Shown: positions 39,994 through 56,673, counted from the stretch's first letter. The stretch: 64,000 nucleotides of DNA from Caulobacter sp. Root655 (GCF_001427665.1 NZ_LMHC01000007.1:1-64000); one strand, 5' to 3'. Notes: generated by a model not told the origin, from the sequence alone. Program-made: numbers and translations.

Positions 39994-41670
39994 TCAGACC
40001 ATGCCCGCCAGGGCGCGTCCCGCCGCCCGGCCCGAGAAGATGCAGCCGCCGAGGAAGGTGCCTTCCAGCGCGTTGTAGCCATGCATCCCGCCACCGCCGA
40101 AGCCCGCCGCCTCGCCCGCGGCGAACAGCCCCTCCAGCGCCGCGCCGCTGGACGTCAGCACGCGACCCGAAAGGTCGGTCTGCAGTCCGCCCAGCGACTT
40201 GCGGGTGAGGACATGCAGCTTGACCCCGATCAACGGTCCCGCCCTCGGATCGAGAATGCGGTGGGGCGTCGCCGTGCGCGCCAGCCGGTCGCCCAGGGCG
40301 CGGCGGCTGTTGTGGATGCCCATGACCTGCAGGTCCTTGGTGAAGGGATTGGCCATCTGGGCGTCGCGGTCCTCGATCTGGCCGCGGATCAGCGCCGCGT
40401 CCAGCAAGGGTTGCTCGGTCAGCGCGTTCATCCTCCCGACCAGGGTCTCCAGCGTGTCGGCGACCACGAAGTCGGCGCCATGACGCTTGAAGGCCTCCAC
40501 CTCGGGCGGCGCGCCCTTGCCCAGGCGTGAGCGCAGCAGGCCCAGCACCCGGCGATTGGTGATGTCGCCGTTCTGCTCGGACCCTGAAAGGGCGAACTCC
40601 TTCTCCAGGATCTTCTGGGTGACGATGAACCAGGAGTGGTCGTGCTCGGCCAGGTCCGGCGTGGTGCGGAGGTGGCGCAGGGTCGCGACGGTGTCGTAGC
40701 CGGGCAGGGCGGGGAAGGGCAGGCGCCGGCCCAGGGCGTCGAACCACATCGCCGAAGGGCCCGGCAGGATGCGGATGGCGTGGCGGGGCCAGATGGGGCT
40801 CCAGTTCCGTACGCCCTCGACGTAGTGCCACATGCGATCGCGGTTCACGAGCCGGGCGCCGGCCGCGCCGGCGATGTCCAGCATCCGCCCGTCGACATAG
40901 GCCGGGACGCCGGTGATCATGTTTCGCGGTGGCGCGCCCAGCCGGTCGGGCCAGAAGCGCCGCACCAGGTCGTGGTCGCCGCCGATGCCGCCGGTGGCCA
41001 GGACGACCGCCTGGGCCTTCAGGGTGTAGCCGCCGACCACCTCGCGACTGGATGGCGCCCCGCGCCCCGCGTCGTCCGGCGTCAGGATCGCCCCGGCGAC
41101 CCCCGTGACCCGGCCGCCCTCGACCAGCAGCTCGTCCACCCGGCGCCGATAATGAAAGGTCAGCAGGCCACCGCCGGCGGCCTCCCGAGCGCGCTGGGCG
41201 AACGGCTCCGACACGCCGGTGCCCGTGCCCCAGGCGACATGGAAGCGTGGCACGGAGTTGCCGTGGCCGAAGGCCTGGCCGCCGCCGCGTTCGGCCCAGC
41301 CGACCATGGGGGTCAGCTTGATCCCGTGGCGGCGCAGCCAGTCGCGCTTCTCACCGGCGGCGAATTCCACATAGGCGCGCGCCCAGCGCACCGCCCATTC
41401 ATCCTCGGGCAGGGGGCCGTCCAGCCGATCCCACCCGGCGCTGCCCCGCCAGTCCCGCCAGGCCAGGTCGAAGCCGTCGCGCACGCCCAGGCGTCGTTGT
41501 TCGGGCGAATTGACCAGGAACAGGCCTCCGAACGACCAGAACGCCTGGCCCCCCAGATTGGCGGCGTTCTCCTGGTCCACCAGGGCGACGCGCTTGCCCG
41601 CCTGGATCAGTTCGTTCGTCGCGACCAGTCCCGCCAGTCCGGCTCCGACGACAATCACGTCAGCGTCCAT
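39994..41670 (-). CDS. FAD-dependent dehydrogenase of the fumarate reductase/ketosteroid dehydrogenase type
   Basis: A 558-residue flavoprotein. The dinucleotide-binding motif VGAGLAGLVATNEL starts at residue 8, and the C-terminus has AGEAAGFGGGGMHGYNALEGT, which closes the FAD site. No signal peptide, so cytoplasmic. Substrate unknown; the family includes ketosteroid 1-dehydrogenases and fumarate reductase-like proteins. GAGGGGGAG precedes ATG 41670; a longer upstream extension lacks support. It is divergent from the TonB receptor at 42535, suggesting the receptor brings in its substrate. Confidence 0.87.
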   Translation of the reverse strand: MDADVIVVGAGLAGLVATNELIQAGKRVALVDQENAANLGGQAFWSFGGLFLVNSPEQRRLGVRDGFDLAWRDWRGSAGWDRLDGPLPEDEWAVRWARAYVEFAAGEKRDWLRRHGIKLTPMVGWAERGGGQAFGHGNSVPRFHVAWGTGTGVSEPFAQRAREAAGGGLLTFHYRRRVDELLVEGGRVTGVAGAILTPDDAGRGAPSSREVVGGYTLKAQAVVLATGGIGGDHDLVRRFWPDRLGAPPRNMITGVPAYVDGRMLDIAGAAGARLVNRDRMWHYVEGVRNWSPIWPRHAIRILPGPSAMWFDALGRRLPFPALPGYDTVATLRHLRTTPDLAEHDHSWFIVTQKILEKEFALSGSEQNGDITNRRVLGLLRSRLGKGAPPEVEAFKRHGADFVVADTLETLVGRMNALTEQPLLDAALIRGQIEDRDAQMANPFTKDLQVMGIHNSRRALGDRLARTATPHRILDPRAGPLIGVKLHVLTRKSLGGLQTDLSGRVLTSSGAALEGLFAAGEAAGFGGGGMHGYNALEGTFLGGCIFSGRAAGRALAGMV

Positions 41671-42534: not shown

Positions 42535-45489
42535 ATGGCTTCATCGGCCTGTGTTCGCGCGCGTCTGGCTGTCACCGCGTCGGTCGTCGCTCTCGCCGTC
42601 GGGGCGGGCTCGGCTTGGGCGCAGGAGGTGACGCAACTCGACGACGTCATCGTCACGGCCCAGAAGCGCGAGGAATCGATCCAGGACGTGCCGATCGCCG
42701 TGACGGCCCTGTCGTCCGAAAACCTGGACACGCTGAAGATCGAAGGGGGCTCGGAGCTGGTGCGGGCCGTGCCGAACGTGACCTTCTCCAAGGCCAATTT
42801 CAGCATGTACAACTTCTCGATCCGCGGGATCGGGACCAAGGCGATCTCGGCCAGCAGCGACCCGGCCGTCGCGGTCAGCTTCAACTCCACGCCGCTGATC
42901 CGCAACCGGCTGTTCGAGCAGGAATATCTCGACGTCCAGCGGGTCGAGGTGCTGCGCGGGCCGCAGGGCACCCTGTACGGTCGCAACGCCACCGGCGGGG
43001 TGGTCAACATGATCCCCAAGCTGCCGGGTCATGAGTTCGAGGGCGTGATCAAGGGCGAGGTCGGCAACTACGACTCCCGCCGGATGTCGGGCATGATCAA
43101 CGTGCCGCTCGGCGACACCTTCGCCGTGCGCGCCGCCGGCTCGATGACCAGGCGCGACGGCTTCGACTACAACAGCTTCAACGACACCCACGTGAACGAC
43201 CGCGATCTGTGGTCCACCCGCCTGTCGGCGGCGTGGGAGCCAAGCAGCCGCTTCCGCAGCAACCTGATCTGGGAGCATTTCGAGGAAGACGACAACCGCT
43301 CGCGCACCGGCAAGCAGCTGTGCACCACCGACCCCGGCCCAACGCGGGCGGGCAGCGTCACCATCACCTCGCCGATCATCCGCAACCGGCTGAGCCAGGG
43401 CTGCCTGCCGGGCTCGCTGTATAGCGACGCGGCCTATGGCGTGCCCAACGGCGGGGCCTTCGCCCACATCTTCCTGGCGTCCCTGTCCTACGGCCAGAAC
43501 GCCCAGGGCCGACCGGTCCAGGCCGTGCCCCTGGGCACGGACCCCTATGCGGGCCTGACCCAGTCCCGGAACTTGCGCGAAATCGCGACCAGCTACGATC
43601 CGATCTTCCGTGTGAAGAACAACGTGGTGCAGTTCAACATGGAGTTCGACCTCAGCGACAAGCTGAAGCTGGTCTCCCAGACGGCCTATGCCGAGGACGC
43701 CTACTACTCCTCGCAAGACTACAACCGGTTCGTTTCCAATCCGATCTTCAGCAACTCCGACGGCCTGTTCGACGTCCTGGGCCGACCGATCGTCGCCCCG
43801 ACCACGCCGACGCCTGGCGGGTACTACACCGATCCCCAGCTGGGCATGTCCAACCGGATGGTCTCGGCCGACCTGAGCCGGTCCGACAACCGCCAATGGA
43901 CCCAGGAGTTGCGCCTGCAGTCGGACTTCGATGGGAAGTTCAACTTCAGCCTCGGGGCCAACTATCTCGACTTCAAATCCCAGGACGACTATTTCGTATT
44001 CAACAACGTCTTCACGTTCCTGGCTGAATATTACTACAATGTCGCCGTCGGCCTGCCGACCAATCTTGGCCGGCAGACACAGCCCTGCACGCCACAGACG
44101 ACGAAGGAATGCATCTACGTCGATCCCACGCCGATGAATCAATTGGCCGGTGACGGTCACAACTACTTCCGCAGCAAGAACGTCATCCACACCCGGTCCT
44201 GGGCGGTGTTCGGCGAGGGCTACCTGGACCTGTCGCCCGAGTTCCGGCTGACGGCGGGGCTGCGCTACACCGACGACCGCAAGGTCAGCACCCCCTATCC
44301 CAGCCAGCTGCTGCTGGGCGCGGATCGCGGCAATCCGGGGCCGTCGTCGGGCGGCTATGTCAGCCGGGACTATCCGGCCCTGCCCGACATCGATCAGCGG
44401 TGGGACGCCGTCACCGGCCGACTGGTGCTGGACTGGAAGCCCAAGCTCAGCTTCACCGACGAGACCCTGGTCTACGCCTCCTACTCGCGGGGCTACAAAG
44501 GCGGTGGGTCCAATCCGCCGCGCGTCGACATCAATCCGACGGTCATCCAGTATCAGCCTCTGCCCGAGACGTTCGAGCCGGAATACGTCAACGCCTTCGA
44601 GATCGGGACCAAGAATTCGCTCTATGGCGGCAAGGTGAGGCTGAACGCCACGGCCTTCTATTACGACTACACCGACTACCAGGTGTCCCAGATCGTCGAC
44701 CGCATCTCGTTGAACGAGAACTTCGACGCCCGCAGCATGGGGCTGGAACTGGAGACGGTCTTCCGTCCCAACCGCGCCTTCCGGGTGGACGCCAATTTCG
44801 GCTATCTGAAGACGCGGATCGGCGACGGCGAAAGCTCCATCGACGTCATGAACCGCACCCAGGGCAATCCCGACTGGATGGTGTTGCGTCCCTGGCTCCA
44901 GGTGCCGTCGAACTGCGTCGCCCCGACCAAGTACGTGCAGACCATCCTTTCGCGACCGTTCCCACCGGAGATGACGGTCGTCGCGCTTCAGGCCCTGTGC
45001 GGCGGGTCGCTGCGGACGGGGACGTTCAATCCGAACTTCCCGTCGAGCGTGCCCTTCTGGCGCCTGTTCGGCTTCAACTATGACCCGCTGACCGAGGCCC
45101 CGAATGGCGGGCGAGGGTTCAAGGCGGACCTGAGCGGCAATGAACTGCCCAATGCGCCGAACTGGACCGCCAACATCGGCGCCCAGTACACCTTCTTCCG
45201 GGGCCCATGGAGCCTGACGTTCCGCGGCGACTACTACTATCAGGGCAGCAGCTATGCCCGCGTCTACAACACCGAATACGACCGGTTGAAAGCCTGGGAC
45301 AACGCCAACCTGTCGGTGACGCTCGAGCGGCCCGACCAGGGCCTGGTCTTCCAGGCCTACGTCAAGAACCTGTTCGACAAGACGCCCATCACCGACACCT
45401 TCACCAACAGCGACGACACCGGCCTGACCGCCAACGTCTTCACCCTGGATCCACGTCTCGTGGCGTTCAGCGTGTCCAAGCGCTTCTAG
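42535..45489 (+). CDS. TonB-dependent receptor (catabolic type)
   Basis: A 984-residue outer-membrane receptor. Signal peptide to about residue 28, then DDVIVTAQKREESIQDVPIA, the opening typical of receptors for hydrophobic or aromatic/steroid-like compounds in sphingomonads and Caulobacter. Plug motifs RNATGGVVNMIPK follow, and the barrel ends in FSVSKRF. GGGGAGG lies 7 bases before ATG 42535; a TTG at 42508 is an alternative with its own GAGGAG. Divergent from the FAD dehydrogenase. Ends in a strong terminator, so it is transcriptionally separate from the PraB-like gene. Confidence 0.9.
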   Translation: MASSACVRARLAVTASVVALAVGAGSAWAQEVTQLDDVIVTAQKREESIQDVPIAVTALSSENLDTLKIEGGSELVRAVPNVTFSKANFSMYNFSIRGIGTKAISASSDPAVAVSFNSTPLIRNRLFEQEYLDVQRVEVLRGPQGTLYGRNATGGVVNMIPKLPGHEFEGVIKGEVGNYDSRRMSGMINVPLGDTFAVRAAGSMTRRDGFDYNSFNDTHVNDRDLWSTRLSAAWEPSSRFRSNLIWEHFEEDDNRSRTGKQLCTTDPGPTRAGSVTITSPIIRNRLSQGCLPGSLYSDAAYGVPNGGAFAHIFLASLSYGQNAQGRPVQAVPLGTDPYAGLTQSRNLREIATSYDPIFRVKNNVVQFNMEFDLSDKLKLVSQTAYAEDAYYSSQDYNRFVSNPIFSNSDGLFDVLGRPIVAPTTPTPGGYYTDPQLGMSNRMVSADLSRSDNRQWTQELRLQSDFDGKFNFSLGANYLDFKSQDDYFVFNNVFTFLAEYYYNVAVGLPTNLGRQTQPCTPQTTKECIYVDPTPMNQLAGDGHNYFRSKNVIHTRSWAVFGEGYLDLSPEFRLTAGLRYTDDRKVSTPYPSQLLLGADRGNPGPSSGGYVSRDYPALPDIDQRWDAVTGRLVLDWKPKLSFTDETLVYASYSRGYKGGGSNPPRVDINPTVIQYQPLPETFEPEYVNAFEIGTKNSLYGGKVRLNATAFYYDYTDYQVSQIVDRISLNENFDARSMGLELETVFRPNRAFRVDANFGYLKTRIGDGESSIDVMNRTQGNPDWMVLRPWLQVPSNCVAPTKYVQTILSRPFPPEMTVVALQALCGGSLRTGTFNPNFPSSVPFWRLFGFNYDPLTEAPNGGRGFKADLSGNELPNAPNWTANIGAQYTFFRGPWSLTFRGDYYYQGSSYARVYNTEYDRLKAWDNANLSVTLERPDQGLVFQAYVKNLFDKTPITDTFTNSDDTGLTANVFTLDPRLVAFSVSKRF

Positions 45490-45507
45490 CGCACCGCTCG
45501 GCGACTC

Positions 45508-45540
45508 GCCGCCCCGCATGGCCGGGGCGGCGGCTTTTTT
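45508..45540 (+). terminator. Intrinsic terminator after the TonB receptor
   Basis: A 9-bp perfect GC stem (45508-45516 with 45523-45531) is followed by GGCTTTTTT. Confidence 0.9.
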
Positions 45541-45650: not shown

Positions 45651-45678
45651 ACCTCCAATGAGAGGTTGCAATAGGAGG
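45651..45678 (+). promoter_or_regulatory. Leader hairpin competing with the Shine-Dalgarno site
   Basis: ACCTC (45651-45655) pairs with GAGGT (45662-45666); alternatively CCTCC (45652-45656) pairs exactly with the GGAGG ribosome site at 45674-45678. The two foldings exclude each other. The hairpin is retained in the remnant copy at 42051 with an A-to-G change that keeps pairing as G-T. A switch controlling translation is plausible. Confidence 0.5.
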
Positions 45679-45686
45679 AAGACGAC

Positions 45687-46169
45687 ATGTTGAAGAGCGC
45701 TTCTATTCTGTCCGCCGCCGTGTTGGCCGTGGCCGGCCTTTCCGCCCCCGCCTCGGCCTCGGCCGCGACCATCAGCCCCTCCGGCGCTTTCACCCTCACC
45801 GGCACGCTGACCCTGCAGCAGTCGACGACCGTCAACTGCAACGTCACGCTGAACGGCACCGTGGCCCCCGGCGGCGCCTCGGCCACCATCACCGGCGGTT
45901 CCTTCGCCCCCGGCGACTGGCAATGCGGCTGGCTGATCTCGCCCACCGGCTTCAACTGGACGATCACGCCGAACGGCGGCACTTCGATCACCATCACGGG
46001 CATCGGCGCCACCTCGATCCTCGGCAACTGCAGCGGCAACATCACCACCAACTGGACCAACGGTTCGCCGGGCAAGGTCACCTTCGTGGGCGCCTCCATC
46101 CCGGGCTCGCCCGGCGCCTGCACCATCAACGGCACCCTCACCAGCTCGCCGTCCCTGACGGTGTCCTGA
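45687..46169 (+). CDS. PraB-like secreted beta-rich protein
   Basis: A 160-residue exported protein: Sec signal to about residue 26 (ASASA), then a mature domain nearly all Thr, Ser, Gly, Asn and hydrophobic residues in alternating beta-strand patterns, with four cysteines (CNV, QCGW, GNCSG, GACT) that could form two disulfides. The layout, including the final C-x-NGTLTSSPSL, resembles the PraB family (alkane-oxidation activator, surface/biofilm protein in Pseudomonas). AGGAGGA lies 8 bases before ATG. It precedes a four-gene exporter and has its own terminator, as for an abundant cargo. Confidence 0.8.
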   Translation: MLKSASILSAAVLAVAGLSAPASASAATISPSGAFTLTGTLTLQQSTTVNCNVTLNGTVAPGGASATITGGSFAPGDWQCGWLISPTGFNWTITPNGGTSITITGIGATSILGNCSGNITTNWTNGSPGKVTFVGASIPGSPGACTINGTLTSSPSLTVS

Positions 46170-46177
46170 GCCGCCTG

Positions 46178-46951
46178 ATGGCGCGGTCGAATTTCGACCC
46201 TTCCATCCCTGACCTCGCCGGGAGCCTTCGGGCTCCCGGCGTTTCTTGCTTTGAGGGCGCGCCGGCCGCGCTGGCCCTGGTCGGCGTGTCGAAGGCCTAT
46301 GGGGCCGGCCCCACGCGCGTGCCGGTGCTGCACGACATCTCGCTGAACATCCCGGCCGGCGGTCTTGTCGCCATCGTCGGCCCGTCCGGCTCGGGCAAGA
46401 GCACGCTGCTGAACCTGATCGGTCTTCTGGACCAGCCCGACAGCGGCGAGATCCGACTGGACGGACAGCGGGTCGCCTTCCGGTCGGCGGCCGAGGCGGC
46501 GCGACTGCGCAACCGCATGATCGGCTTCGTCTTCCAATCCTTCCAGTTGTTGCCGCGCCTGACGGCCTGGGAGAACGTGGCGCTGCCCCTGCTGTATCGA
46601 GGCGTGCCGCGCGCCGAACGACGCGTTCGCGCCCTGGCCATGCTGGAGAGCGTCGACCTGGCCGATCGGGTCGACCATCGGCCCTCGGCGCTGTCGGGTG
46701 GTCAGTGCCAGCGCGTCGCCCTGGCCCGCGCCCTGATCGGGGAGCCGCGCCTGATCCTCGCCGACGAGCCGACCGGCAGTCTGGACACCGCCACCGGCGC
46801 GACCGTCATGGATCTGCTGCGGGACTTGAACCGACGGCTGGGGACGACGATCGTCATGGTCACCCATGACCCGGACCTGGCGGCGCGCTGCAACGCCCTG
46901 ATCGAGATTCGGGATGGGCGCATCCGGACCCAGCGCGAGGAGGCGACATGA
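46178..46951 (+). CDS. MacB/LolD-type ABC exporter ATPase
   Basis: A 257-residue ATPase: Walker A GPSGSGKSTLLNLIG, Q-loop FVFQSFQLLPRLT, signature LSGGQCQRVALARALIG (usual GGQ-Q with Cys in between), Walker B LILADEPTGSLD and the H-loop TH. This is the MacB/LolD/FtsE type that powers periplasm-facing exporters without moving substrate through the membrane. ATG 46178 is 8 bp after the PraB-like stop, but its first 24 codons span a terminator hairpin and have no family match; a start at GTG 46286 is possible. Coupled to the permease by an ATGA overlap. Confidence 0.87.
   Translation: MARSNFDPSIPDLAGSLRAPGVSCFEGAPAALALVGVSKAYGAGPTRVPVLHDISLNIPAGGLVAIVGPSGSGKSTLLNLIGLLDQPDSGEIRLDGQRVAFRSAAEAARLRNRMIGFVFQSFQLLPRLTAWENVALPLLYRGVPRAERRVRALAMLESVDLADRVDHRPSALSGGQCQRVALARALIGEPRLILADEPTGSLDTATGATVMDLLRDLNRRLGTTIVMVTHDPDLAARCNALIEIRDGRIRTQREEAT
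46216..46247 (+). terminator. TTCG-loop terminator after the PraB-like gene
   Basis: An 11-bp perfect stem (46216-46226 with 46231-46241) with TTCG loop and GTTTCTT after it. A decayed copy follows the remnant gene at 42136. It could set a high cargo to low exporter ratio by partial termination. Confidence 0.75.
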
Positions 46952-48129
46952 CGACCAACGCCGCGCCGACCGCCCTGTTCGTCGAGGCCCTGGACAATCT
47001 GAAGGGGCAGGGCCGACGCTCGCTGTTGGCGTTGCTGGGGGTGGTCATCGGCTCGGGCGCCATCGTCGCCCTGCTCAACCTCGGCCACATGGCGCAGCTG
47101 GAGACCCTGAAGCGGTTCCGCCAGACGGGGGTGGACATGCTGCAGGTCGTGGCCCAGCCGACCGGCGCCGAACCGGTCGGGCTCGACCTCGGGGCGCTGA
47201 AGGCCGCGGCCGCGTCGGAACCCGGGGTCGTGCGGGTCACACCGCTGGCGACGGCGCGGCTCCCGGTTCGGGCCGGCGCCCGTCAGATCGACGCGATGGT
47301 CGCGGCCGTGCCGCCCGCGATGGCCGAGGTCGCCGGGTTGCGGGCCGCGACGGGGCGACTGCTGGGACCGATCGACGATTGCGGCGCGGCCGCCCTGGTC
47401 GGCGCGCGGCTGGCCAACGACCTGTCCGGACCGGGCGCCGCCCTGGCGCCGGGCGCCTTGATCACGGTCGGCGACTACGGCTTCACGGTCGTGGGCCTGT
47501 TGCGGCCCGTGCCGATGGAGGCGCTGAGCCCCGTCGACTACGACCAGGCCGTCGTCATCCCGCTGGCCTGCGCGCGCCGCGTGGCCGGGCCGGACCCGAC
47601 GGCCGCCCTGATCCGCCTGCGCCTCGAGGCCGATCCCGAGGCCGTCGGACGTCGCCTGACCACGCGGTTGAGCCGTCCCGGCCTGAGCGTCCAGGTTCGC
47701 GACGCCCGGGCCATGATCCGGGCCATGAACGCCCAGGCGGCGGTTCATTCCCGCCTCTTGACGGCGATCGGCGCGATCTCCCTTCTGGTCGGCGGGATCG
47801 GGGTGATGAATGTCATGCTGATGACGGTGATGGAACGGCGGCGCGAGATCGGCCTGCGCGCCGCGATCGGGGCGACGCCCGGCGACATCCGGTTGATGTT
47901 CCTGATCGAGGGCGTGGTTCTGTCGCTCAGCGGCGGCGCCCTGGGGGCGGCGCTGGGCGTGGCGGCGACGGCGATGATCGCCAGGATGTCCGGCTGGACC
48001 TTCGACCTGGCCCTCTGGGTGCTGCCGCTGGGGCCGGGCATGGCGGCCGTGGTCGGCCTGATCTTCAGCCTCTATCCCGCGATCACCGCGTCGCGCGTTC
48101 ATCCGATCGAGGCCTTGCGTGCGGACTAG
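46948..48129 (+). CDS. MacB-like ABC exporter permease (FtsX domain)
   Basis: A 393-residue inner-membrane permease: one N-terminal helix (about 20-45), a large periplasmic domain, then a three-helix FtsX domain from about 260 (LLVGGIGVMNVMLMTVMERR, EIGLRAAIGATPGDI, ASRVHPIEALRAD). Unlike E. coli MacB the ATPase is a separate protein. With the ATPase, TolC-like protein and periplasmic adaptor it makes a complete tripartite exporter that would take substrate from the periplasm. Starts on the ATPase stop (ATGA). Confidence 0.88.
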   Translation: MTTNAAPTALFVEALDNLKGQGRRSLLALLGVVIGSGAIVALLNLGHMAQLETLKRFRQTGVDMLQVVAQPTGAEPVGLDLGALKAAAASEPGVVRVTPLATARLPVRAGARQIDAMVAAVPPAMAEVAGLRAATGRLLGPIDDCGAAALVGARLANDLSGPGAALAPGALITVGDYGFTVVGLLRPVPMEALSPVDYDQAVVIPLACARRVAGPDPTAALIRLRLEADPEAVGRRLTTRLSRPGLSVQVRDARAMIRAMNAQAAVHSRLLTAIGAISLLVGGIGVMNVMLMTVMERRREIGLRAAIGATPGDIRLMFLIEGVVLSLSGGALGAALGVAATAMIARMSGWTFDLALWVLPLGPGMAAVVGLIFSLYPAITASRVHPIEALRAD

Positions 48130-49624
48130 TCGGGTGGCGTGGGCGAGCTTCTTGGGCATATGCGGCGTGGCGACGGCTTCGGCGGCGGGCGCCCAGTCCC
48201 AGGGCGTCGTGGGCGTGCCGTCCTTCAGCGTGTCGCCGGTCGCTGGCGTGCCTTCGCCCTCCGCCACACCGGTCCCGTCCGGCGCCGCGCTGAACCTCGG
48301 CCTCGAGGAAGCCGTGGCGCTGGGGTTGCGCCAGAACCGCGCCATCCGTTCGGCCTATCTGCAGCGCGCGGTCGAGCGGTTCGATCTCTTCGTCGCCCAG
48401 CGCGCCTTCGTTCCGGTGGGCGGGGTCGCGGCCGAGGTGGTGCGACGTCGCTCCGCGAACGGAACAACCCAGACGGAGGCGGTGGTTACGCCTTCGGCCG
48501 GCTGGCGCACGCCGCTGGGAACGACCGCCGCCTTCGTGTGGGACCGGCGCGAGCGGCTGGAGGGCGGCGGGGGCGGGGCCAGGAAAACCTTGTCCCTGAG
48601 CCTGCGACAGCCGCTGCTGCGCGGCGCCGGCCTCGACGTCAACATGGCCCCGGTGCGCGTCGCCCGCTTGCAGGAGGAGATCAACCGCCTGCGCCTGAAG
48701 GCGACGGTGTCGGACACCGTCACGGCCGTCGTCTTCGCCTATCGCGGCCTGATCCAGGCGCAGGAGCAGGTGCGTCTGGCCGAGTTGTCGCTGGAGCGGA
48801 CCCGCGCCTTGCTCGAGACCAACCGGGCCCTGATCGACGCCGGCCGAATGGCGGCGGCCGATATCGTGCAGACGGAATCCGGCGTGGCGAACCAGGAGGT
48901 GGCGGTGCTGGAGGCCCGTCGTCAGCGGGCTTCCGCCCAGGTGACCCTGCTTCGGCTGCTGGCGCTCGACCCGCGCACCAATGTCATGGCGTCCGACGAC
49001 ATCGCGGCCAGGCATGTCGAGATCGACCTGAATCTGGCGGTCGAACTGGCGCTGGAGGCGCGGGTCGACGTCCTGGCCCAGCGCAAGTCGATCGAGCAGG
49101 CGCGGCAAGCCGCCGCCGTGGCGCGCAACAATCGCCTGTGGGACCTGTCGGTGGTCGGCTCCCTGACCCGGCAAGACGGCGACTGGGGGCCGGGCGTGCT
49201 GTCGGGGCGCACGGATCGCACGATCGGCCTGACGCTGGGTATTCCGATCGGAGACTATTCCGCCCGCCAGGCCGACCTGGCCGCCTCGACCAGCCTGAAG
49301 ACCGCCGAACTCTATTACGAGGACCTGGCGGCGGCCGTCGAGGCTCAGATCCAGGACGCCGTCCAGACGGCCGAGAGCACCTGGCGTCAGCTGGAGGCCG
49401 CGCGCCGCGCTCGCGACCTGGCCGAGCGGGCCCTGGAGCTGCAGCAGGAAAAGCTGCGGGTGGGGCGCGCCTCCAACTTCGAGGTGCTCTCCTTCCAGTC
49501 CGACCTGAGGGCCGCGGACAGTCAGGAACTGTCGGCTCGGATCGCCTACCTCAACGCGCTGACGGCGCTGGACCAGCAAATCGGGAGCACGCTCGAGACA
49601 TGGCGCATTTCCTTGAACGACTAG
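48119..49624 (+). CDS. TolC-family outer-membrane efflux protein
   Basis: A 501-residue protein with a signal peptide (ending ASAAGAQ near residue 26) and two repeats of the outer-membrane efflux domain, rich in Ala/Gln/Leu coiled-coil helices (LAELSLERTRALLETNRALIDAGRMA; ARRARDLAERALELQQEKL). It provides the outer-membrane duct. GTG start at 48119 overlaps the permease by 11 bp. A TolC gene inside an exporter operon, rather than a shared one, points to a dedicated substrate. Confidence 0.88.
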   Translation: MRTSRVAWASFLGICGVATASAAGAQSQGVVGVPSFSVSPVAGVPSPSATPVPSGAALNLGLEEAVALGLRQNRAIRSAYLQRAVERFDLFVAQRAFVPVGGVAAEVVRRRSANGTTQTEAVVTPSAGWRTPLGTTAAFVWDRRERLEGGGGGARKTLSLSLRQPLLRGAGLDVNMAPVRVARLQEEINRLRLKATVSDTVTAVVFAYRGLIQAQEQVRLAELSLERTRALLETNRALIDAGRMAAADIVQTESGVANQEVAVLEARRQRASAQVTLLRLLALDPRTNVMASDDIAARHVEIDLNLAVELALEARVDVLAQRKSIEQARQAAAVARNNRLWDLSVVGSLTRQDGDWGPGVLSGRTDRTIGLTLGIPIGDYSARQADLAASTSLKTAELYYEDLAAAVEAQIQDAVQTAESTWRQLEAARRARDLAERALELQQEKLRVGRASNFEVLSFQSDLRAADSQELSARIAYLNALTALDQQIGSTLETWRISLND

Positions 49625-50889
49625 GGGCGCGATGGGGACGGCGGCTGCTCTATGCCGGCCTGGCCGTCGTGGTCGGCGGCCTGCTGGTGGTGGGCATGAC
49701 GCGCGGCCGCGACAAGGCGACCGGCGACGTCGCGGCGGAACAGAGCGCGGTGGCGCGGCGAGGGCCCTTTGTCCTGTCCGCCAATTTCACGGGCCGGATC
49801 GCCCCGGGGGCCCGGATCGATGTGACGGCGCCGTTCGACTCCCGCGTGGCCGAGGTCCGCTTCACCTACGGCGACCAGGTCGAGGCGGGGCAGGTGCTGG
49901 TCGAGCTTGACCCCGCCGATGTGGGCCGCGGTCGCGCCGAGGCCGAGATCGCCTGGCTGAGGGCCGAGGCGGAGGCGTCGCGATTGGATAACTGGGAGCA
50001 GGGGCCGGAGGTGAAGCGCGCCGCGCGCGCGGTCACGACCGCTGATGCCGAACTGGGCGATATCGAGGCCAAGCTGGCGGAGACCAGGGCGCTGCTGGAT
50101 CGTGGCCTGGTGCCGCGCAGCGAGTACGACACGATCGTGCAGCAGCGGCGCCAGCGACAGACGGCCGCCACGGCGGCGCGCGAGGATCTCGCCGACACCG
50201 CGCGGCGAGGACAGGGCGGCGAGCGGCGGATCGCCCTGTTGCAGAGGGGGGTGGCGCGTTCGCAGTACGCGGGCGTCGGGGGAGCGTCCTCGGGCCCCGT
50301 CATTCTGGCGCCCCAGGCCGGAGTCGTCGTGCGTCCCGACGACGGGACCGAAGGCGGCGCCAAAGGCGTGCATAGCGGCAGCCGGGTCAGCAAGGGCCAG
50401 CTGTTGGGCGTCATCGCCAGCACCTCCGGCCTGGACGTGGTCTTCAAACTGGATGAAGCGGACCTGGCCGCGGTCAAGACCGGGCAGAGGGCGGTGGTGA
50501 CGGGCCCCGGTTTTGGCGGAAGCCCCCTGATGGGGACAGTGCTCAGCGTGGGGGGCGAAGCGGAGGCGACCTCGGCGGGAGGAAAGGCGACGTTCGAGGC
50601 GCGCGTGCGTCTCGATCGCCTGTCCGAAGCGGCCGCGCGCGACGTCCGCATCGGCATGACCGCCAACATCGCCATAGCGACCTACCAGAATCCGGCCGTC
50701 GTGACCGTGCCGCCTCAGGCTGTCCAGGGCGCCGCGCCGCAGGCCTATGTGATGGTGCGATCGAAGGCCGGGCGCGGACCGCGGCGCAGGCCGGTCGGGA
50801 TCGGCCGCGTCGGTCCAGCCGCGGTGGAGATCCTGTCAGGACTGGAGCCCGGCGAGACGGTGGTCTGGGGCGCTCCCGCCGGCGGTTGA
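49600..50889 (+). CDS. Periplasmic adaptor (HlyD/MacA type)
   Basis: A 429-residue membrane fusion protein: one N-terminal anchor (about 14-34, RRLLYAGLAVVVGGLLVVGM), lipoyl-like half motifs (GARIDVTAPFDSRVAEV and SSGPVILAPQAGVVV), a coiled-coil hairpin between about 110 and 215, and a beta-barrel/proximal domain to the end. It would bridge the permease and the TolC-like duct. The ATG overlaps the TolC gene by 25 bp. The operon ends here, convergent with a siderophore-type receptor. Confidence 0.88.
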   Translation: MAHFLERLGARWGRRLLYAGLAVVVGGLLVVGMTRGRDKATGDVAAEQSAVARRGPFVLSANFTGRIAPGARIDVTAPFDSRVAEVRFTYGDQVEAGQVLVELDPADVGRGRAEAEIAWLRAEAEASRLDNWEQGPEVKRAARAVTTADAELGDIEAKLAETRALLDRGLVPRSEYDTIVQQRRQRQTAATAAREDLADTARRGQGGERRIALLQRGVARSQYAGVGGASSGPVILAPQAGVVVRPDDGTEGGAKGVHSGSRVSKGQLLGVIASTSGLDVVFKLDEADLAAVKTGQRAVVTGPGFGGSPLMGTVLSVGGEAEATSAGGKATFEARVRLDRLSEAAARDVRIGMTANIAIATYQNPAVVTVPPQAVQGAAPQAYVMVRSKAGRGPRRRPVGIGRVGPAAVEILSGLEPGETVVWGAPAGG

Positions 50890-50922: not shown

Positions 50923-53013
50923 TCAGAAGGCCAGCTTCACACGCCCGGTGATCGTCCTTGGCGCACCCGGGGTGATCCACACGTTGCTGTACGAGCTTTC
51001 GAGATAGTAGGCGTCCAGCAGGTTCTCGGCATCCAGGTGCAGGGAGAGTTCCGGCGTTACGCGATAGCTGAGGTTCAATCGCGCGGTGACGTAGCCGGGC
51101 AGGGTGAAGCCCGAGTTGACGTCGTCGCCCTGGCGTCCGCCGACATAGACCAGCCCGCCGCCCACGCCGATCGCGCCGGGACCTTCGCGGGCCGAACGCC
51201 AATGCGCGTGGACCGCCGCCGAGTGGCGCGGGATGTTGCTCAAGGCGCTGCCGACCAGGTCCGGCCGCGTGTCCTTGGTGATCTCCGTGTCGGTGAAGGC
51301 ATAGACCCCCGTCAGGGTCAGCTGGTCTCCGATCTTCAGATTGGCGTCGAACTCCACCCCCTGGCTGCGGGCTTCGCCGACGGCGATGAAGAAGCCGCTG
51401 TTGGCCGCGTCGTTGGCCAGGATGTTCTTCTTGTCGATGCGGAAGACCGACAGGGTCCCGGTCAGGTCGCCGTCGCGCAGGGCGTACTTGGCGCCGCCTT
51501 CCAGGGCCTCGCCTTCCTCCGGCGCGAAGGCCAGGCCCGCCGCGTCGGCGCCCTGGTTGTAGCGGAACGACTGGCCCCAGCTGACATAGGCCGACAACTG
51601 GTCGGACGCCGCCCAGGTCAGGGCGGCGCGCGGCGAGGTCCGGGCGGGGCTCTGATGGCTGGCGGTATGGCTGCGGTAGTTGGTGGTGGTCTGCTGGATC
51701 CAGTCATGGCGCAGGCCAAGCAGGACCGTGAAGCGGCCGGCGGTGACGAGGTCCTGGGCATAGACGCTCTGGCCGCGCAGCTCTTCCAGCAGGTCCTGGT
51801 TCAGCGTGGCCACCGGCTTGGCCTGGCCATAGACCGGATTAAAGACGTCGATGGCGTAGGGCGCCGCCGCCGTCGGGCTGTAACGCAGGAAGACTCGCCG
51901 CTGGTCGTAGGTGAAGGCGTCGCCGCCAACCCGCAACTGATGTTCAAGGCCCACCAACTGGCGCCTGACGCTCAGTTCCGCACGGCCGGAAAAGTCTTGC
52001 CAATCATAGTCGTGGACGCGCAACTGGCGGCGAAGCTGGGCGCCGACCAGGCTGGCATTGTGGGTCGACTGACCCTTGAAGAAGCCGTCGCGATACTGGA
52101 CGCCGCCTTCCAGCGACACGCCCTCGACCAGGTCGAAGGCGGCGGAGACCTGGTGCTGCAGGCTTTGCTGGTGGATCTTCCCGTCATTGGGCTCGCCCAG
52201 GAAGCGATCGCGGGGCAGGGCCCTGCCGTCGCCGTTCACCGCGACCAGGCCCCGGTCGTGGACAAAATGAACGTCCATCGCCTCGAACTGATAGAGCAGG
52301 CGGGTCTTGTCGGTCGGCGTCCAGGCCAGGGACGGGGCCAGCACCAGGCGGTCGCTGCCCGCGTGGTCGCGGAAACCGTCCGTGGTCTGATAGGCTCCCA
52401 CCAGCCGCGCCGACACCGTTCCGCTCATCGGCCCGCCCACGTCGCCAACCGCCCGCCAGGTGTCGAAGTCGCCATAGCCCAGCTCCGCCGAGGCGTGGGC
52501 GTGGCGCAGGGGCGTCTTGGTGACGATGTTGATCGAGCCGCCGGGCTCGCCCTTGCCCGATAGGGCCGAGGCCGGTCCCTTGAGCACCTGGAAGACCTCG
52601 ACCGTGGCGACGTCGCGGCGCGGGTTGAAGCCGCGATTGGCGGTGAAGCGGTTGACCAGCAGGTCGGGCCCCTGGTTGATGTCGCCGGAGAAACCCCGGA
52701 TCGCATAGGCGTCCCAGGCGCCGCCGAAGCTGTTCTGGCGGGCCATGCCGCCGGCCAGGTCGAACAGGTCCGACAGGTTGGCCACGCCCATTTGGTCGAT
52801 CAGCTGGCGGTCCAGGACCCGCACGCTCTGCGGAAGCCTGAGGGGCGAGACATCCAGGCCGTTGATGCTGGCGTTGGCCCGCCGGGCGGTGACCGTGACG
52901 TTCTCCACGACCGTGTCGGCGACCTCGACGTCAACCTCGGCCGCCGCGTTGGTCGAAAGGCCGACCGCCGCGCAACCCGCCATCAACGCGGTGCGAAAAT
53001 CCATGAACCTCAT
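50923..53013 (-). CDS. TonB-dependent siderophore-type receptor
   Basis: A 696-residue receptor of the FhuA/FhuE/FpvA-like length class. Signal peptide to about residue 24, then TVVENVTVTARR and the plug (LPQSVRVLDRQLIDQMG, AIRGFSGD, VLKGPASALSGKGEPGGSIN). The barrel ends RVKLAF. Such receptors import metal chelates. It is divergent from an ABC-2 exporter cluster with a symmetric site between them, so the pair is probably co-regulated by metal status. The ligand cannot be read. Confidence 0.9.
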   Translation of the reverse strand: MRFMDFRTALMAGCAAVGLSTNAAAEVDVEVADTVVENVTVTARRANASINGLDVSPLRLPQSVRVLDRQLIDQMGVANLSDLFDLAGGMARQNSFGGAWDAYAIRGFSGDINQGPDLLVNRFTANRGFNPRRDVATVEVFQVLKGPASALSGKGEPGGSINIVTKTPLRHAHASAELGYGDFDTWRAVGDVGGPMSGTVSARLVGAYQTTDGFRDHAGSDRLVLAPSLAWTPTDKTRLLYQFEAMDVHFVHDRGLVAVNGDGRALPRDRFLGEPNDGKIHQQSLQHQVSAAFDLVEGVSLEGGVQYRDGFFKGQSTHNASLVGAQLRRQLRVHDYDWQDFSGRAELSVRRQLVGLEHQLRVGGDAFTYDQRRVFLRYSPTAAAPYAIDVFNPVYGQAKPVATLNQDLLEELRGQSVYAQDLVTAGRFTVLLGLRHDWIQQTTTNYRSHTASHQSPARTSPRAALTWAASDQLSAYVSWGQSFRYNQGADAAGLAFAPEEGEALEGGAKYALRDGDLTGTLSVFRIDKKNILANDAANSGFFIAVGEARSQGVEFDANLKIGDQLTLTGVYAFTDTEITKDTRPDLVGSALSNIPRHSAAVHAHWRSAREGPGAIGVGGGLVYVGGRQGDDVNSGFTLPGYVTARLNLSYRVTPELSLHLDAENLLDAYYLESSYSNVWITPGAPRTITGRVKLAF

Positions 53014-53147: not shown

Positions 53148-53882
53148 TTGACCACCACATCCGCCATGGCGCTCGAGGCCGTGGGGCTTGAGCAGAACTA
53201 CGGGACCCAGCGGGTTCTTCGCGGCCTGACTTTTTCCGTGAGGGCGGGGGAGATCTACGCCCTGCTGGGCGGCAACGGCGCGGGCAAGTCGACGACCCTG
53301 AACCTGTTTCTGGGACTGGCGCGGCCGACGGCCGGTTCCGCGCGGGTCTGCGACGTCGAGGTCGGGTCGGATCCCGCGGCGGCGCGGGCGCGCATCGCCT
53401 ACGTGCCCGAGAATGTCGCGCTCTATGAGCACCTGACCGCGCGCGAGAACATCGACTACCTGCTGACCCTGGCCCGGGCCGACACGGCGGGCGCCCTGAT
53501 CGAGGAGGCGCTCGACGCCGTGGGCCTGGTCCGCGAGGCCTGGGATCGGCGGCTCGGAGGCTACTCCAAGGGCATGCGCCAGAAGGTGGCCATCGCCCTG
53601 GCCATCGCCCGCCGCGTGCCGGTCCTGCTGCTCGACGAGCCGACCGCGGGCCTGGACCCTCGGGCCACGGCGGATTTCCACCGCCTGCTGGAGACCGCCC
53701 GGATTCGCGGCGTGGCGACCTTGATGGTGACCCACGACCTGCTGGGCGCGGCCGAGGTCGCCGACCGCATCGGCTTCCTGGCCGAGGGCCGCATCGAAGC
53801 CGAACTCATCGCCGAGGGGACGGAGCGTTTCGACGTTCGAGCCCTTCACCAGCGCTATCTCCAGGCGGGAGCCGCGGCGTGA
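53148..53882 (+). CDS. ABC-2 type transporter ATPase
   Basis: A 244-residue ATPase of the CcmA/NosF/drug-export class: Walker A GGNGAGKSTT, signature YSKGMRQKVAIALAIA, Walker B VLLLDEPTAGLD and TLMVTHD. Start is TTG 53148 with GAGGGGAT upstream; the internal ATG 53166 has no ribosome site. Coupled to the first permease by a GTGA overlap. Confidence 0.88.
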   Translation: MTTTSAMALEAVGLEQNYGTQRVLRGLTFSVRAGEIYALLGGNGAGKSTTLNLFLGLARPTAGSARVCDVEVGSDPAAARARIAYVPENVALYEHLTARENIDYLLTLARADTAGALIEEALDAVGLVREAWDRRLGGYSKGMRQKVAIALAIARRVPVLLLDEPTAGLDPRATADFHRLLETARIRGVATLMVTHDLLGAAEVADRIGFLAEGRIEAELIAEGTERFDVRALHQRYLQAGAAA

Positions 53883-55318
53883 GCGGGCGGCCAAGCCTGG
53901 TCGGCCGGGTCGCGCGCGAGGAATGGCGGGCCCTGGCGCGCAATCGGGTCGCGGTGGTCGCCGGCTTGATCCTGGCGGTGCTGCTGGCCGGTTCCGCGCT
54001 TCTGTGCGTGGAGCAGCGCAACGCCATCGAGGCGTCGCGCGAGCGTCATCAGGCCAGTTCCGACCGCCAGTTCGACCTCCAACCCGACCGGCATCCGCAC
54101 CGCATGGTCCACTACGGCCAGTTCGTGTTCCGGCCGCTCTCGACCCTGGCCTTCTTTGACCGTGGGGTGGACAGTTTCACCGGCCACACGGTCTTTCTCG
54201 AAGGCCACCGCCAGAACAGCGCCAATTTCAGCGAAGCGCGGCAATCCTCGCTGTTGTTGCGCTTCGGCGAGCTGACACCGGCCTTCGTGCTCCAGACGCT
54301 GGCGCCGCTGCTGGTGATCTTCCTGGCCTATGGCGCGGTGGCCAGCGAGCGGGAGCGCGGCACGCTGCGCCTGCTGGCCGCCCAGGGGCTGGGGGCGAGC
54401 GACATGCTGGCTGGCAAGCTCCTGGCCCATGGCGGGGCGGCCGGCCTGATCCTGGCGCCGGCGGCGCTGGCCCTGCTGATCGCCGCGCTGCTGGGCTGGG
54501 CTCCGCCCGGGCCGGCGGTGCTGCTGCTTGTCATCTACGGGCTCTACCTGGCGATCTGGGCGGTGATGGCGGTCCTGGTCTCCTCCCTGGCGCGGCGTTC
54601 GCGCGACGCCTTGATCCTGCTGGTGTCGATCTGGATGGTGCTGGTGGTGTTGATCCCGCGCACCCTTCCCGAGGCGGCGGCGCGCTTGCGGACGCAGACG
54701 CTGACGCGGATCGAGACCGACATCGCCATCCACGCCGACCTCAACAAGATCGGCGACAGCCACGACCCCGACGACCCCTATTTCTCGGCCTTCAAGGCCA
54801 AGATCCTGGCCCAGTACGGCGTCCGGCGCGTCGAGGACCTCCCCGTCCAGTGGGCCGGCCTGGTTGGCATGGAAGGCGAGCGCCTGACCAGCCAGCTCTT
54901 CGACCGCTACGCCCGCGAGGCCTTCGCCCGTGAGCAGGCTCAGAACCGCTTCGTGCGCGGCTTTGGGGCCGTCAGCCCGGTGATCGCCCTGCGTCAGGCC
55001 TCGATGAGCCTGGCCGGCACGGACATCGAGAGCCATCAGGACTTCCTCGATCAGGTCGAGCGCTACCGCTACGCCTTCGTCCAGTCGCTCAACCGGATGC
55101 AGGTCGAGCAGATTCCCAACCAGGGCGCCGGCGAGGATCCGCGCATCGCCGCCGCCAACTGGAAGCGCGTGCCCAGCTTCGCCTACGTCGCGCCGGACGT
55201 GCTGCGCCTGGCCGGCGGCCGTATCGCGGCCAACCTCGCTGTTCTGATCGTCTGGCTCGTCGCGCTGCTGGCGCTCTGCGCGCCCGTCGCCCGCCGACTC
55301 CGCGAGGACGCCCGATGA
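53879..55318 (+). CDS. ABC-2 permease with DUF3526 domain (1)
   Basis: A 479-residue permease. One helix near 20-40, a long periplasmic region (HRMVHYGQFVFRPLSTLAFFDRG), a helix bundle at about 135-270 with the ABC-2 motif ERERGTLRLLAAQG, a second soluble region (FVRGFGAVSPVIALRQASMSLAGTD) and a C-terminal helix. DUF3526 architecture. GTG start overlaps the ATPase stop. With the second permease it would form a heterodimer; function of this family is not established. Confidence 0.82.
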   Translation: MSGRPSLVGRVAREEWRALARNRVAVVAGLILAVLLAGSALLCVEQRNAIEASRERHQASSDRQFDLQPDRHPHRMVHYGQFVFRPLSTLAFFDRGVDSFTGHTVFLEGHRQNSANFSEARQSSLLLRFGELTPAFVLQTLAPLLVIFLAYGAVASERERGTLRLLAAQGLGASDMLAGKLLAHGGAAGLILAPAALALLIAALLGWAPPGPAVLLLVIYGLYLAIWAVMAVLVSSLARRSRDALILLVSIWMVLVVLIPRTLPEAAARLRTQTLTRIETDIAIHADLNKIGDSHDPDDPYFSAFKAKILAQYGVRRVEDLPVQWAGLVGMEGERLTSQLFDRYAREAFAREQAQNRFVRGFGAVSPVIALRQASMSLAGTDIESHQDFLDQVERYRYAFVQSLNRMQVEQIPNQGAGEDPRIAAANWKRVPSFAYVAPDVLRLAGGRIAANLAVLIVWLVALLALCAPVARRLREDAR

Positions 55319-56673
55319 ACCGCTTTCGATATGAGCTGCGCCTACTGCTGCGGTCGCGAGTCGCCGCCGCCGCGCTGACACTGCTGCTGGTGCTGTCGGC
55401 GGTCGCGGTGGGCGCCGGCCTGTCGGCCAGCGCGCGCCAGACCGCGCTGATCGACCGGGTGGCGACGGCCCAGGCGCGCGACTTCGCCGCCGCCACGACC
55501 CAGTATGGCAAGCCCGACGGCGAGGCCGGCTACGCGGCCTACTACACCTTTCATCTGACTTCGGATCGTCCCTCCAGCCTGGCCTTCGCCGCCATGGGGC
55601 AGCGCGATATCCAGCCCTATGTCCTGCGCGTGCGGCTGCTGGGCCTCCAGGCGCAGCTCTACGAGACGGAGACGGTGAATCCGGAACTGGCGTTGCCGGG
55701 GCCGTTCGATTTCGCCTTCGTGCTGATCTACCTCGCGCCGCTGGCCGTCATCGTCCTGATGCACGACCTTGTCTCGGGCGAGCGGGAGGCTGGGCGCCTG
55801 CGCCTGCTGAGCGCCTTGCCGGTGACGCCGGGACAGCTGTGGCTGCGCCGAGCCGGCGTGAGGCTGATGCTGGTGCTGCTGGCTCTGCTCGGGCCTTTCC
55901 TGGTCGGCGCGCTTGTGGCCAAGGCCCCCATCTGGGGGGTGGCGATCCTGAGTCTGGTCGCCATTCTCTACGTCGCCTTCTGGGCGGGCCTTGGCCTGAT
56001 GGTCGGCGCCTGGGGCCGTCGGTCCGCCTTCAACGCTGCGACGCTTGTCGGTTGTTGGATCGTCCTGGTCCTGCTGGTCCCGGCCCTGGCCAACGCCGCG
56101 TTGTCGCGCGCGATTCCGGTCGGTCGCGGCGTCGACCTGACCCTGGCCCAGCGCGAGGCGGTCCACCACGCCTGGGACGTTCCCCGCGAAGCGGTGATGG
56201 CGCCCTTCGTCGCCAAGCATCCGGAGTGGAAGGACAAGGCGCGGGTCGGCGGCGGCTTCCACTGGAAGTGGTACTACGCCATGCACGAGATGGGAGACGA
56301 CGGCGTGGCCGGTCAGGTCGCCGCCTATCGCGCTAGCCTGGCGGCCCGGCAGGCCTGGACCGAACGCCTGGGCTGGCTGTCGCCGGCCGCCGCCGCCCAG
56401 AGCCTGGTCCACCGCGTCGCCGATAGCGACCTGCAGGCCCATCTGGCCTATCAGGACAACGTCACGGCGTTCCACCGTCACCTGCAGGACTTCTACTACC
56501 CCTATCTCTTCAGCGAGCGGCCGTTCACGCGGAAGGACTTCGCCAGGGCGCCTGTCTACGCGCCGCGCGGTTCTTCATCGTCGACGCCGGTCGTTCCCCT
56601 GCTTGCCCTTCTGGTTCTGTCGCTGAGCGCTTGGGCTGGGGGCGTGGTCGGGGCGCGGCGCACCGTGAGTTGA
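55315..56673 (+). CDS. ABC-2 permease with DUF3526 domain (2)
   Basis: A 452-residue paralogue of the preceding gene with the same layout: N-terminal helix, periplasmic region, ABC-2 bundle (VSGEREAGRLRLLSALPVTP), second periplasmic region (DFYYPYLFSERPFTRKDFAR) and C-terminal helix. ATGA overlap with the first permease. Three-gene unit opposite a siderophore-type receptor suggests metal-linked traffic or envelope maintenance. Confidence 0.82.
   Translation: MNRFRYELRLLLRSRVAAAALTLLLVLSAVAVGAGLSASARQTALIDRVATAQARDFAAATTQYGKPDGEAGYAAYYTFHLTSDRPSSLAFAAMGQRDIQPYVLRVRLLGLQAQLYETETVNPELALPGPFDFAFVLIYLAPLAVIVLMHDLVSGEREAGRLRLLSALPVTPGQLWLRRAGVRLMLVLLALLGPFLVGALVAKAPIWGVAILSLVAILYVAFWAGLGLMVGAWGRRSAFNAATLVGCWIVLVLLVPALANAALSRAIPVGRGVDLTLAQREAVHHAWDVPREAVMAPFVAKHPEWKDKARVGGGFHWKWYYAMHEMGDDGVAGQVAAYRASLAARQAWTERLGWLSPAAAAQSLVHRVADSDLQAHLAYQDNVTAFHRHLQDFYYPYLFSERPFTRKDFARAPVYAPRGSSSSTPVVPLLALLVLSLSAWAGGVVGARRTVS

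Follow-up and report, generated by a model that had tools for sequence, protein, structure and literature searches.

Known MacB-type export routes and the Caulobacter locus

MacB-type pumps pick up substrates in the periplasm and use ATP-driven closure to force them out via MacA and TolC (PMC5985334, PMC8277102, PMC7943197). The Sec-dependent, disulfide-bonded proteins STII and dispersin are exported in this way (PMC5985334, PMC7943197), and STII requires both Sec and Dsb before its export by MacB (PMC5985334, PMC8277102, PMC7943197). One review suggests that dispersin, at ~10 kDa, may come close to the largest size at which a folded cargo can be exported, and separate ATPases are known within the MacB superfamily (PMC5985334). 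We analyzed a 64,000-nucleotide stretch of the genome of Caulobacter sp. Root655 (GCF_001427665.1, NZ_LMHC01000007.1:1-64000; hereafter referred to as the window), in which a gene for a small PraB-like secreted protein is followed by a four-gene exporter operon. An earlier note on this DNA proposed that the PraB-like protein is the substrate of this exporter. The five genes that it named are all present, complete and correctly placed, and its premise that MacB-type pumps draw their substrates from the periplasm has published precedent (PMC5985334, PMC7943197). Judging from sequence and gene distribution, the PraB-like protein is probably exported by this MacB-type pump.

The gene for the proposed cargo (45687-46169, plus strand, as are all features of the window described below unless otherwise indicated) encodes a protein of 160 amino acids. 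A Sec-type signal peptide was read by eye at residues 1-26 (45687-45764), with cleavage placed at MLKSASILSAAVLAVAGLSAPASASA|AT, and no lipobox was found in it. The mature protein, of 134 amino acids and 13.1 kDa, contains 26 Thr, 22 Gly, 16 Ser and four Cys residues, but a single Lys and a single Asp. The cargo matched the NCBIfam models for PraB (NF041562; E=1.6e-14, 53.9 bits) and PraA (E=1.5e-14) at full length. It scored below the curated cut-offs of both models (120 and 150 bits, respectively), and is therefore, at the level of sequence, a PraA/PraB homologue and not a PraB equivalog. Its place in the PraA/PraB superfamily is indicated by this full-length homology, the signal peptide and the four Cys residues, which were invariant across 26 relatives. 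A narrow PraB scan of named genomes gave matches in Caulobacter only, the closest relative being that of Caulobacter sp. AP07 (95% identity); the PraB-like protein had no plasmid match, and no sequence relatives in the PDB at E≤1. The genome from which the window was taken carries a second PraB-like gene, 60% identical to the first (G000:C5:67247-67723; L003:9248-9724).

The operon encodes an ATP-binding cassette (ABC) ATPase (46178-46951; ABC_tran, 2.4e-36; nearest models MacB, LolD and darobactin exporter), a MacB-type permease without a fused ATPase (46948-48129; MacB_PCD, 3e-21; FtsX, 3.5e-18; E=2e-29 with the solved MacB structure 5nik), a TolC-family outer-membrane duct (48119-49624; OEP, 8.6e-39) and an HlyD/MacA-type periplasmic adaptor (49600-50889; HlyD_3, 6e-15). 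This set of components identifies a MacB-type tripartite exporter and contains every part needed by the MacB periplasmic-export model. The earlier note described all the genes as coupled by overlaps; this holds for the four exporter genes (4 bp for ATPase/permease, 11 bp for permease/TolC and 25 bp for TolC/adaptor), but the cargo and ATPase genes are separated by a gap of 8 bp. The terminator that it placed between cargo and exporter is present as a terminator-like hairpin of 11 pairs 3' of the cargo gene (46216-46241), identical in the nearest relative, but lies within the longest ATPase frame. The start codon of the ATPase is considered uncertain because of this hairpin and because homologues of the ATPase begin ~30 residues after the start of the longest frame.

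The MacAB-TolC/STII system of Escherichia coli (PMC5985334, PMC8277102) shares with this locus a MacB-type permease, an HlyD/MacA adaptor and TolC, together with a substrate delivered by Sec to the periplasm and bearing disulfides, as would be expected for the PraB-like cargo. It differs in that the ATPase and permease, fused in E. coli MacB, are separate genes in Caulobacter, where the substrate is a predicted 13-kDa beta-barrel of another family and the cluster holds its own TolC and cargo genes. The Aat/Cex systems, exporting dispersin and CexE (PMC7943197), have a split MacB-type ATPase/permease, their own TolC homologue, an adaptor and, as dedicated cargo, a small Sec-exported surface protein. 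However, no AatD acyltransferase gene was found in the Caulobacter operon, to which the search was limited, the cargo is unrelated, and its predicted mature N-terminus is Ala-Thr rather than an AatD-acylated Gly. PvdRT-OpmQ resembles the Caulobacter locus as a MacB-type periplasmic exporter linked to a TonB-receptor nutrient pathway, but its substrate is a small molecule, pyoverdine. A Sec-then-MacB-type-pump route is thus already known from STII and dispersin; the PraB family as cargo would be new, as the earlier note believed, no description of it having been found in the literature searched, which left out most subscription journals.

Co-occurrence of exporter and PraB-like genes in two genera

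A search of 75 genomes, taken as Caulobacter on the basis of the PraB scan, with a threshold of E≤1e-60 for permease orthologues, identified the exporter in nine genomes, a PraB-like gene in 17, and both in eight (Fisher test, 1.1e-5). A PraB-like gene was located no more than 5 kb from the permease gene in all eight of the testable exporter genomes; for the ninth exporter, which sits on a contig of 4 kb, linkage cannot be judged. The earlier note had recognized that its proposal would fail if relatives usually carried the operon without a PraB-like gene, and this is the opposite of what was found. Two layouts were observed. In the first (TBDR>PraB>ATPase>permease>TolC>adaptor), found in the window, G021 and G065, a gene for a TonB-dependent receptor (in the window, the receptor hereafter referred to as TBDR1) precedes the cargo gene, which in G065 is represented by six tandem PraB-like genes. 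In the second (TolC<>ATPase>permease>adaptor, then PraB, then TBDR1), found in G007, G012, G023, G075 and G088, PraB and TBDR1 were separated by a sigma-factor gene wherever this was checked.

The same association was found in a second genus (hereafter referred to as g118), inferred to be Pseudomonas because of its matches to the PraA/PraB models and a gene order equal to that of PA4594-PA4589 in Pseudomonas aeruginosa, in which the exporter operon precedes pra by gene numbering and PA4589 is presumably FadL-like. In strain PAO1, the genes PA4594-PA4591 form an ABC-transporter operon (PMC6437102), PA4591 encodes an HlyD-domain protein (PMC9515472), and PA4590 is pra, the product of which is an emulsifier induced on alkanes (PMC5410065). 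Among 298 g118 genomes (exporter threshold E≤1e-120), PraB was present in 61 of the 62 with the exporter and in none of the 236 others, one weak PraB match with two internal stops being set aside (Fisher test, 2.7e-63, a value inflated by shared ancestry). In most of these genomes, the exporter and PraB loci are separated by tens of kb or more, or are on two contigs, and in the examples read, praA-praB adjoin an alkB-like gene and fadL. Nevertheless, G287, G563 and G657 carry ATPase>permease>TolC>adaptor>PraB>FadL in a single run, the PraB of G287 exceeding the curated cut-off, and two further genomes have the permease and PraB genes within 4.6 kb. In the sole exporter genome without PraB, the draft assembly G515, the TolC and adaptor genes are fragmented and the ATPase frame is short (L182, 4785-9221), as if the exporter had decayed after loss of the cargo. 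Mapped onto an rpoB tree covering 80 of these genomes, PraB required ~5 state changes and the exporter ~4, versus ~27 for shuffled labels, and about four lineages in this tree, plus the G287 group outside it, each hold both genes. The co-occurrence of PraB-family genes with split MacB operons, which the earlier note had put forward as a check, thus supports the link in both Caulobacter and g118, and with it the main proposal of that note, that a PraB-like protein exported by Sec has a MacB-type exporter of its own.

The partner receptor, the predicted fold and rival explanations

The earlier note mentioned neither TBDR1 (42535-45489; Pfam TonB_dep_Rec, 1e-35; Plug, 4e-14) nor the occurrence of PraB-like genes without the exporter. 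The longest TBDR1 frame opens at a TTG (42508), 27 bp 5' of the ATG used by relatives, and the ATG start was adopted. In 15 of the loci examined, whether or not these contain the exporter, TBDR1 (50-99% identity) adjoins a PraB-like gene, and it is the most constant partner of this gene in Caulobacter. In g118, FadL occupies the position held by the TonB-dependent receptor in Caulobacter. The g118 locus, like that of Caulobacter, combines a PraB homologue with an exporter of the same permease clade, but its partner is of the FadL type and most praA-praB pairs lie beside an alkB-like gene, whereas in Caulobacter a TonB-dependent receptor is the partner and the search for alkB relatives gave no match at E≤1e-20. 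The partnership with TBDR1 in one genus and FadL in the other suggests a role in the capture of hydrophobic compounds rather than in biofilms; no evidence was found for the biofilm role envisaged in the earlier note, and we have not adopted it.

The AlphaFold2 model of the cargo, built with 26 relatives, is all-beta (predicted local distance difference test score, pLDDT, 88). In structural comparisons, it resembled closed barrels of small size, among them OmpW, designed barrels and avidins (Z 8-11); the barrel of TbpB, a surface protein that works with a TonB receptor, gave Z 7.8 and did not rise above the middling range, and a Foldseek search with the model gave no match at E≤0.001. Along the strands, a Thr/Asn face alternates with one of Gly, Leu and Val, which bears three of the invariant Cys residues. 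A soluble barrel with a hydrophobic interior, if the latter face is the one directed inwards, would fit an emulsifier. Within the family, reports of emulsifying or alkane-solubilizing activity concern only the proteins from Pseudomonas (PMC5410065, PMC4542665).

These features can be assembled into a scheme in which the PraB-like protein would reach the periplasm through Sec and fold there as a small beta-barrel with two disulfides, presumably formed by pairing of the four invariant Cys residues, which fit such a periplasmic folding step. The split MacB-type pump would then drive the cargo over the outer membrane, with the ATPase and permease acting as the bellows, the HlyD adaptor as the gate and TolC as the duct. 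Outside the cell or at its surface, the cargo may bind or emulsify a hydrophobic compound, which the adjacent TBDR1 would take up. We consider the chances of this hydrophobic-capture role with TBDR1 to be about even.

Several observations weigh against this scheme. Nine Caulobacter genomes carry PraB-like genes, mostly with TBDR1, in the absence of such an exporter, and the second PraB-like gene of the window's genome has neither the exporter nor TBDR1 alongside. In g118, PraB is clade-clustered. The mature cargo, at 13 kDa, exceeds the suggested limit of ~10 kDa for folded cargoes (PMC5985334). Finally, the alkB-like gene of g118 had no relative at E≤1e-20 in the 75 Caulobacter genomes, in a search that had no positive control, and alkanes may therefore not be the ligand in Caulobacter.

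The exporter-less Caulobacter genomes also favor the most durable of the rival explanations, in which the pump exports a small molecule of the same hydrophobic-nutrient pathway (a biosurfactant, a siderophore-like compound or a toxic product) and the PraB-like protein leaves the cell by other means. Small molecules are among the known substrates of MacB pumps (PMC5985334), PvdRT-OpmQ serves as a model, and a TonB-dependent receptor adjoins the pump. However, no biosynthetic gene cluster was recognized beside the exporter in the loci listed, the partner common to both genera is the small Sec-exported protein, and elsewhere in the exporter clade this position is occupied by small Sec-exported proteins of different families (see below); we therefore regard this explanation as unlikely.

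It is less likely still that the PraB-like protein is not a cargo at all, but is itself embedded in the outer membrane as an OmpW-type barrel. OmpW is among the best structural matches (Z 11, 3.1 Å over 120 residues) and one face of the strands is hydrophobic, but the match is tied with those of other small barrels, designed soluble barrels among them. In addition, the usual C-terminal aromatic outer-membrane signal is absent from the window protein and most of its relatives, the invariant Cys residues lie largely on the hydrophobic face, and the family member Pra has been described as an emulsifier pre-solubilizing alkanes (PMC5410065). The possibility that the PraB-like protein and TBDR1 form a functional unit, with an unrelated drug-efflux operon downstream by chance in a few strains, would account for the terminator-like hairpin between cargo and exporter and for the fact that, among the closest relatives of the cargo, TBDR1-PraB is found more often without the exporter than with it, but hardly for a linkage met again in a second genus and with the genes in another order, or for a co-occurrence that persists when the loci are unlinked, and we give it the least credence. 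Export of the PraB-like protein by the adjacent pump thus remains the preferred reading.

Other members and neighbors of the exporter clade

Further members of the exporter subfamily were obtained from a phylum-wide search. On the permease tree, both PraB-linked groups clustered with G473, G789 and G800, with G591 and with G390 in a single clade (support of 0.98), and the neighbors of the exporters in this clade include small Sec-type proteins of unrelated families. In G473, G789 and G800, which belong to an alphaproteobacterial genus (g22), the exporter is near a small Sec-type protein with four Cys residues and near luxR/luxI (L141:1264-4277; L274:7879-10281; L277:9872-12385). The model of this four-Cys protein (pLDDT 69) is aegerolysin-like (Cry34Ab1, Z 14.5, 2.0 Å over 106 residues), and a homologue of the protein adjoins an exporter on a plasmid of Azospirillum argentinense. 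Kinship between the PraB and aegerolysin-like proteins was considered and rejected, the profile comparison having aligned signal peptides only. In G591, two tandem proteins with two Cys residues each are encoded directly 5' of the ATPase.

Plasmid exporters were identified by permease similarity and are not placed on the tree. A 155-amino-acid protein with two Cys residues is encoded beside the exporter in plasmids of Citrobacter, Pantoea and Rahnella, and another Pantoea plasmid has FlhE-like proteins on both flanks of the exporter. Single cargo candidates were found in Rhizobium, Methylosinus, Azospirillum B510 and G390. The plasmid exporters of Deefgea and Enterobacter had no cargo-like gene alongside, and the Rahnella aceris exporter lies at the edge of its record. 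Small Cys-containing secreted open reading frames were counted near 23 of 29 clade exporters versus seven of 13 controls, an automatic count too noisy to be relied upon. Hidden Markov models of the cargoes matched none of 14 control loci, a comparison that drew on few controls and is biased by the building of the models from clade loci. We lean towards regarding this clade as a dedicated secretion system that serves small Sec-exported beta-proteins with paired cysteines in general, of which no description was found in the same literature.

Other features were recorded around these exporters. The Citrobacter and Pantoea plasmids encode homologous proteins of 313-319 amino acids, with no evident signal peptide, between the secreted protein and the ATPase (L285:4284-5225; L286:4249-5208). 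The exporter copy on a Rahnella aquatilis plasmid (L290:3185-9042) may be damaged, its TolC and adaptor genes being annotated as fragments, with a 573-bp open reading frame between the ATPase and permease genes. In the window, a terminator-like hairpin with a T run follows TBDR1 (45506-45533), and a divergent FAD_binding_2 dehydrogenase gene (39994-41670, minus strand; Pfam FAD_binding_2, 2e-75) is kept beside TBDR1-PraB in the closer Caulobacter relatives (L058-L063, 86-96%). Downstream of the operon, a siderophore-type TonB receptor gene (50923-53013, minus strand) adjoins genes for an ABC ATPase and two ABC-2/DUF3526 permeases (53148-56673).

That Pra proteins assist alkane use as emulsifiers has been known since the 1970s, but the literature searched yielded no account of their route out of the cell. 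The pairing described here names a probable export machine for these proteins, including PA4594-PA4591 in P. aeruginosa. If this reading is correct, the substrate range of MacB would extend from ~10 kDa to a folded barrel of 13 kDa. The clade also points to a wider set of small-protein exporters annotated as generic ABC transport or efflux. The pairing of pump and protein recurs in other bacteria, and the question of Pra release thus becomes testable by single gene deletions.

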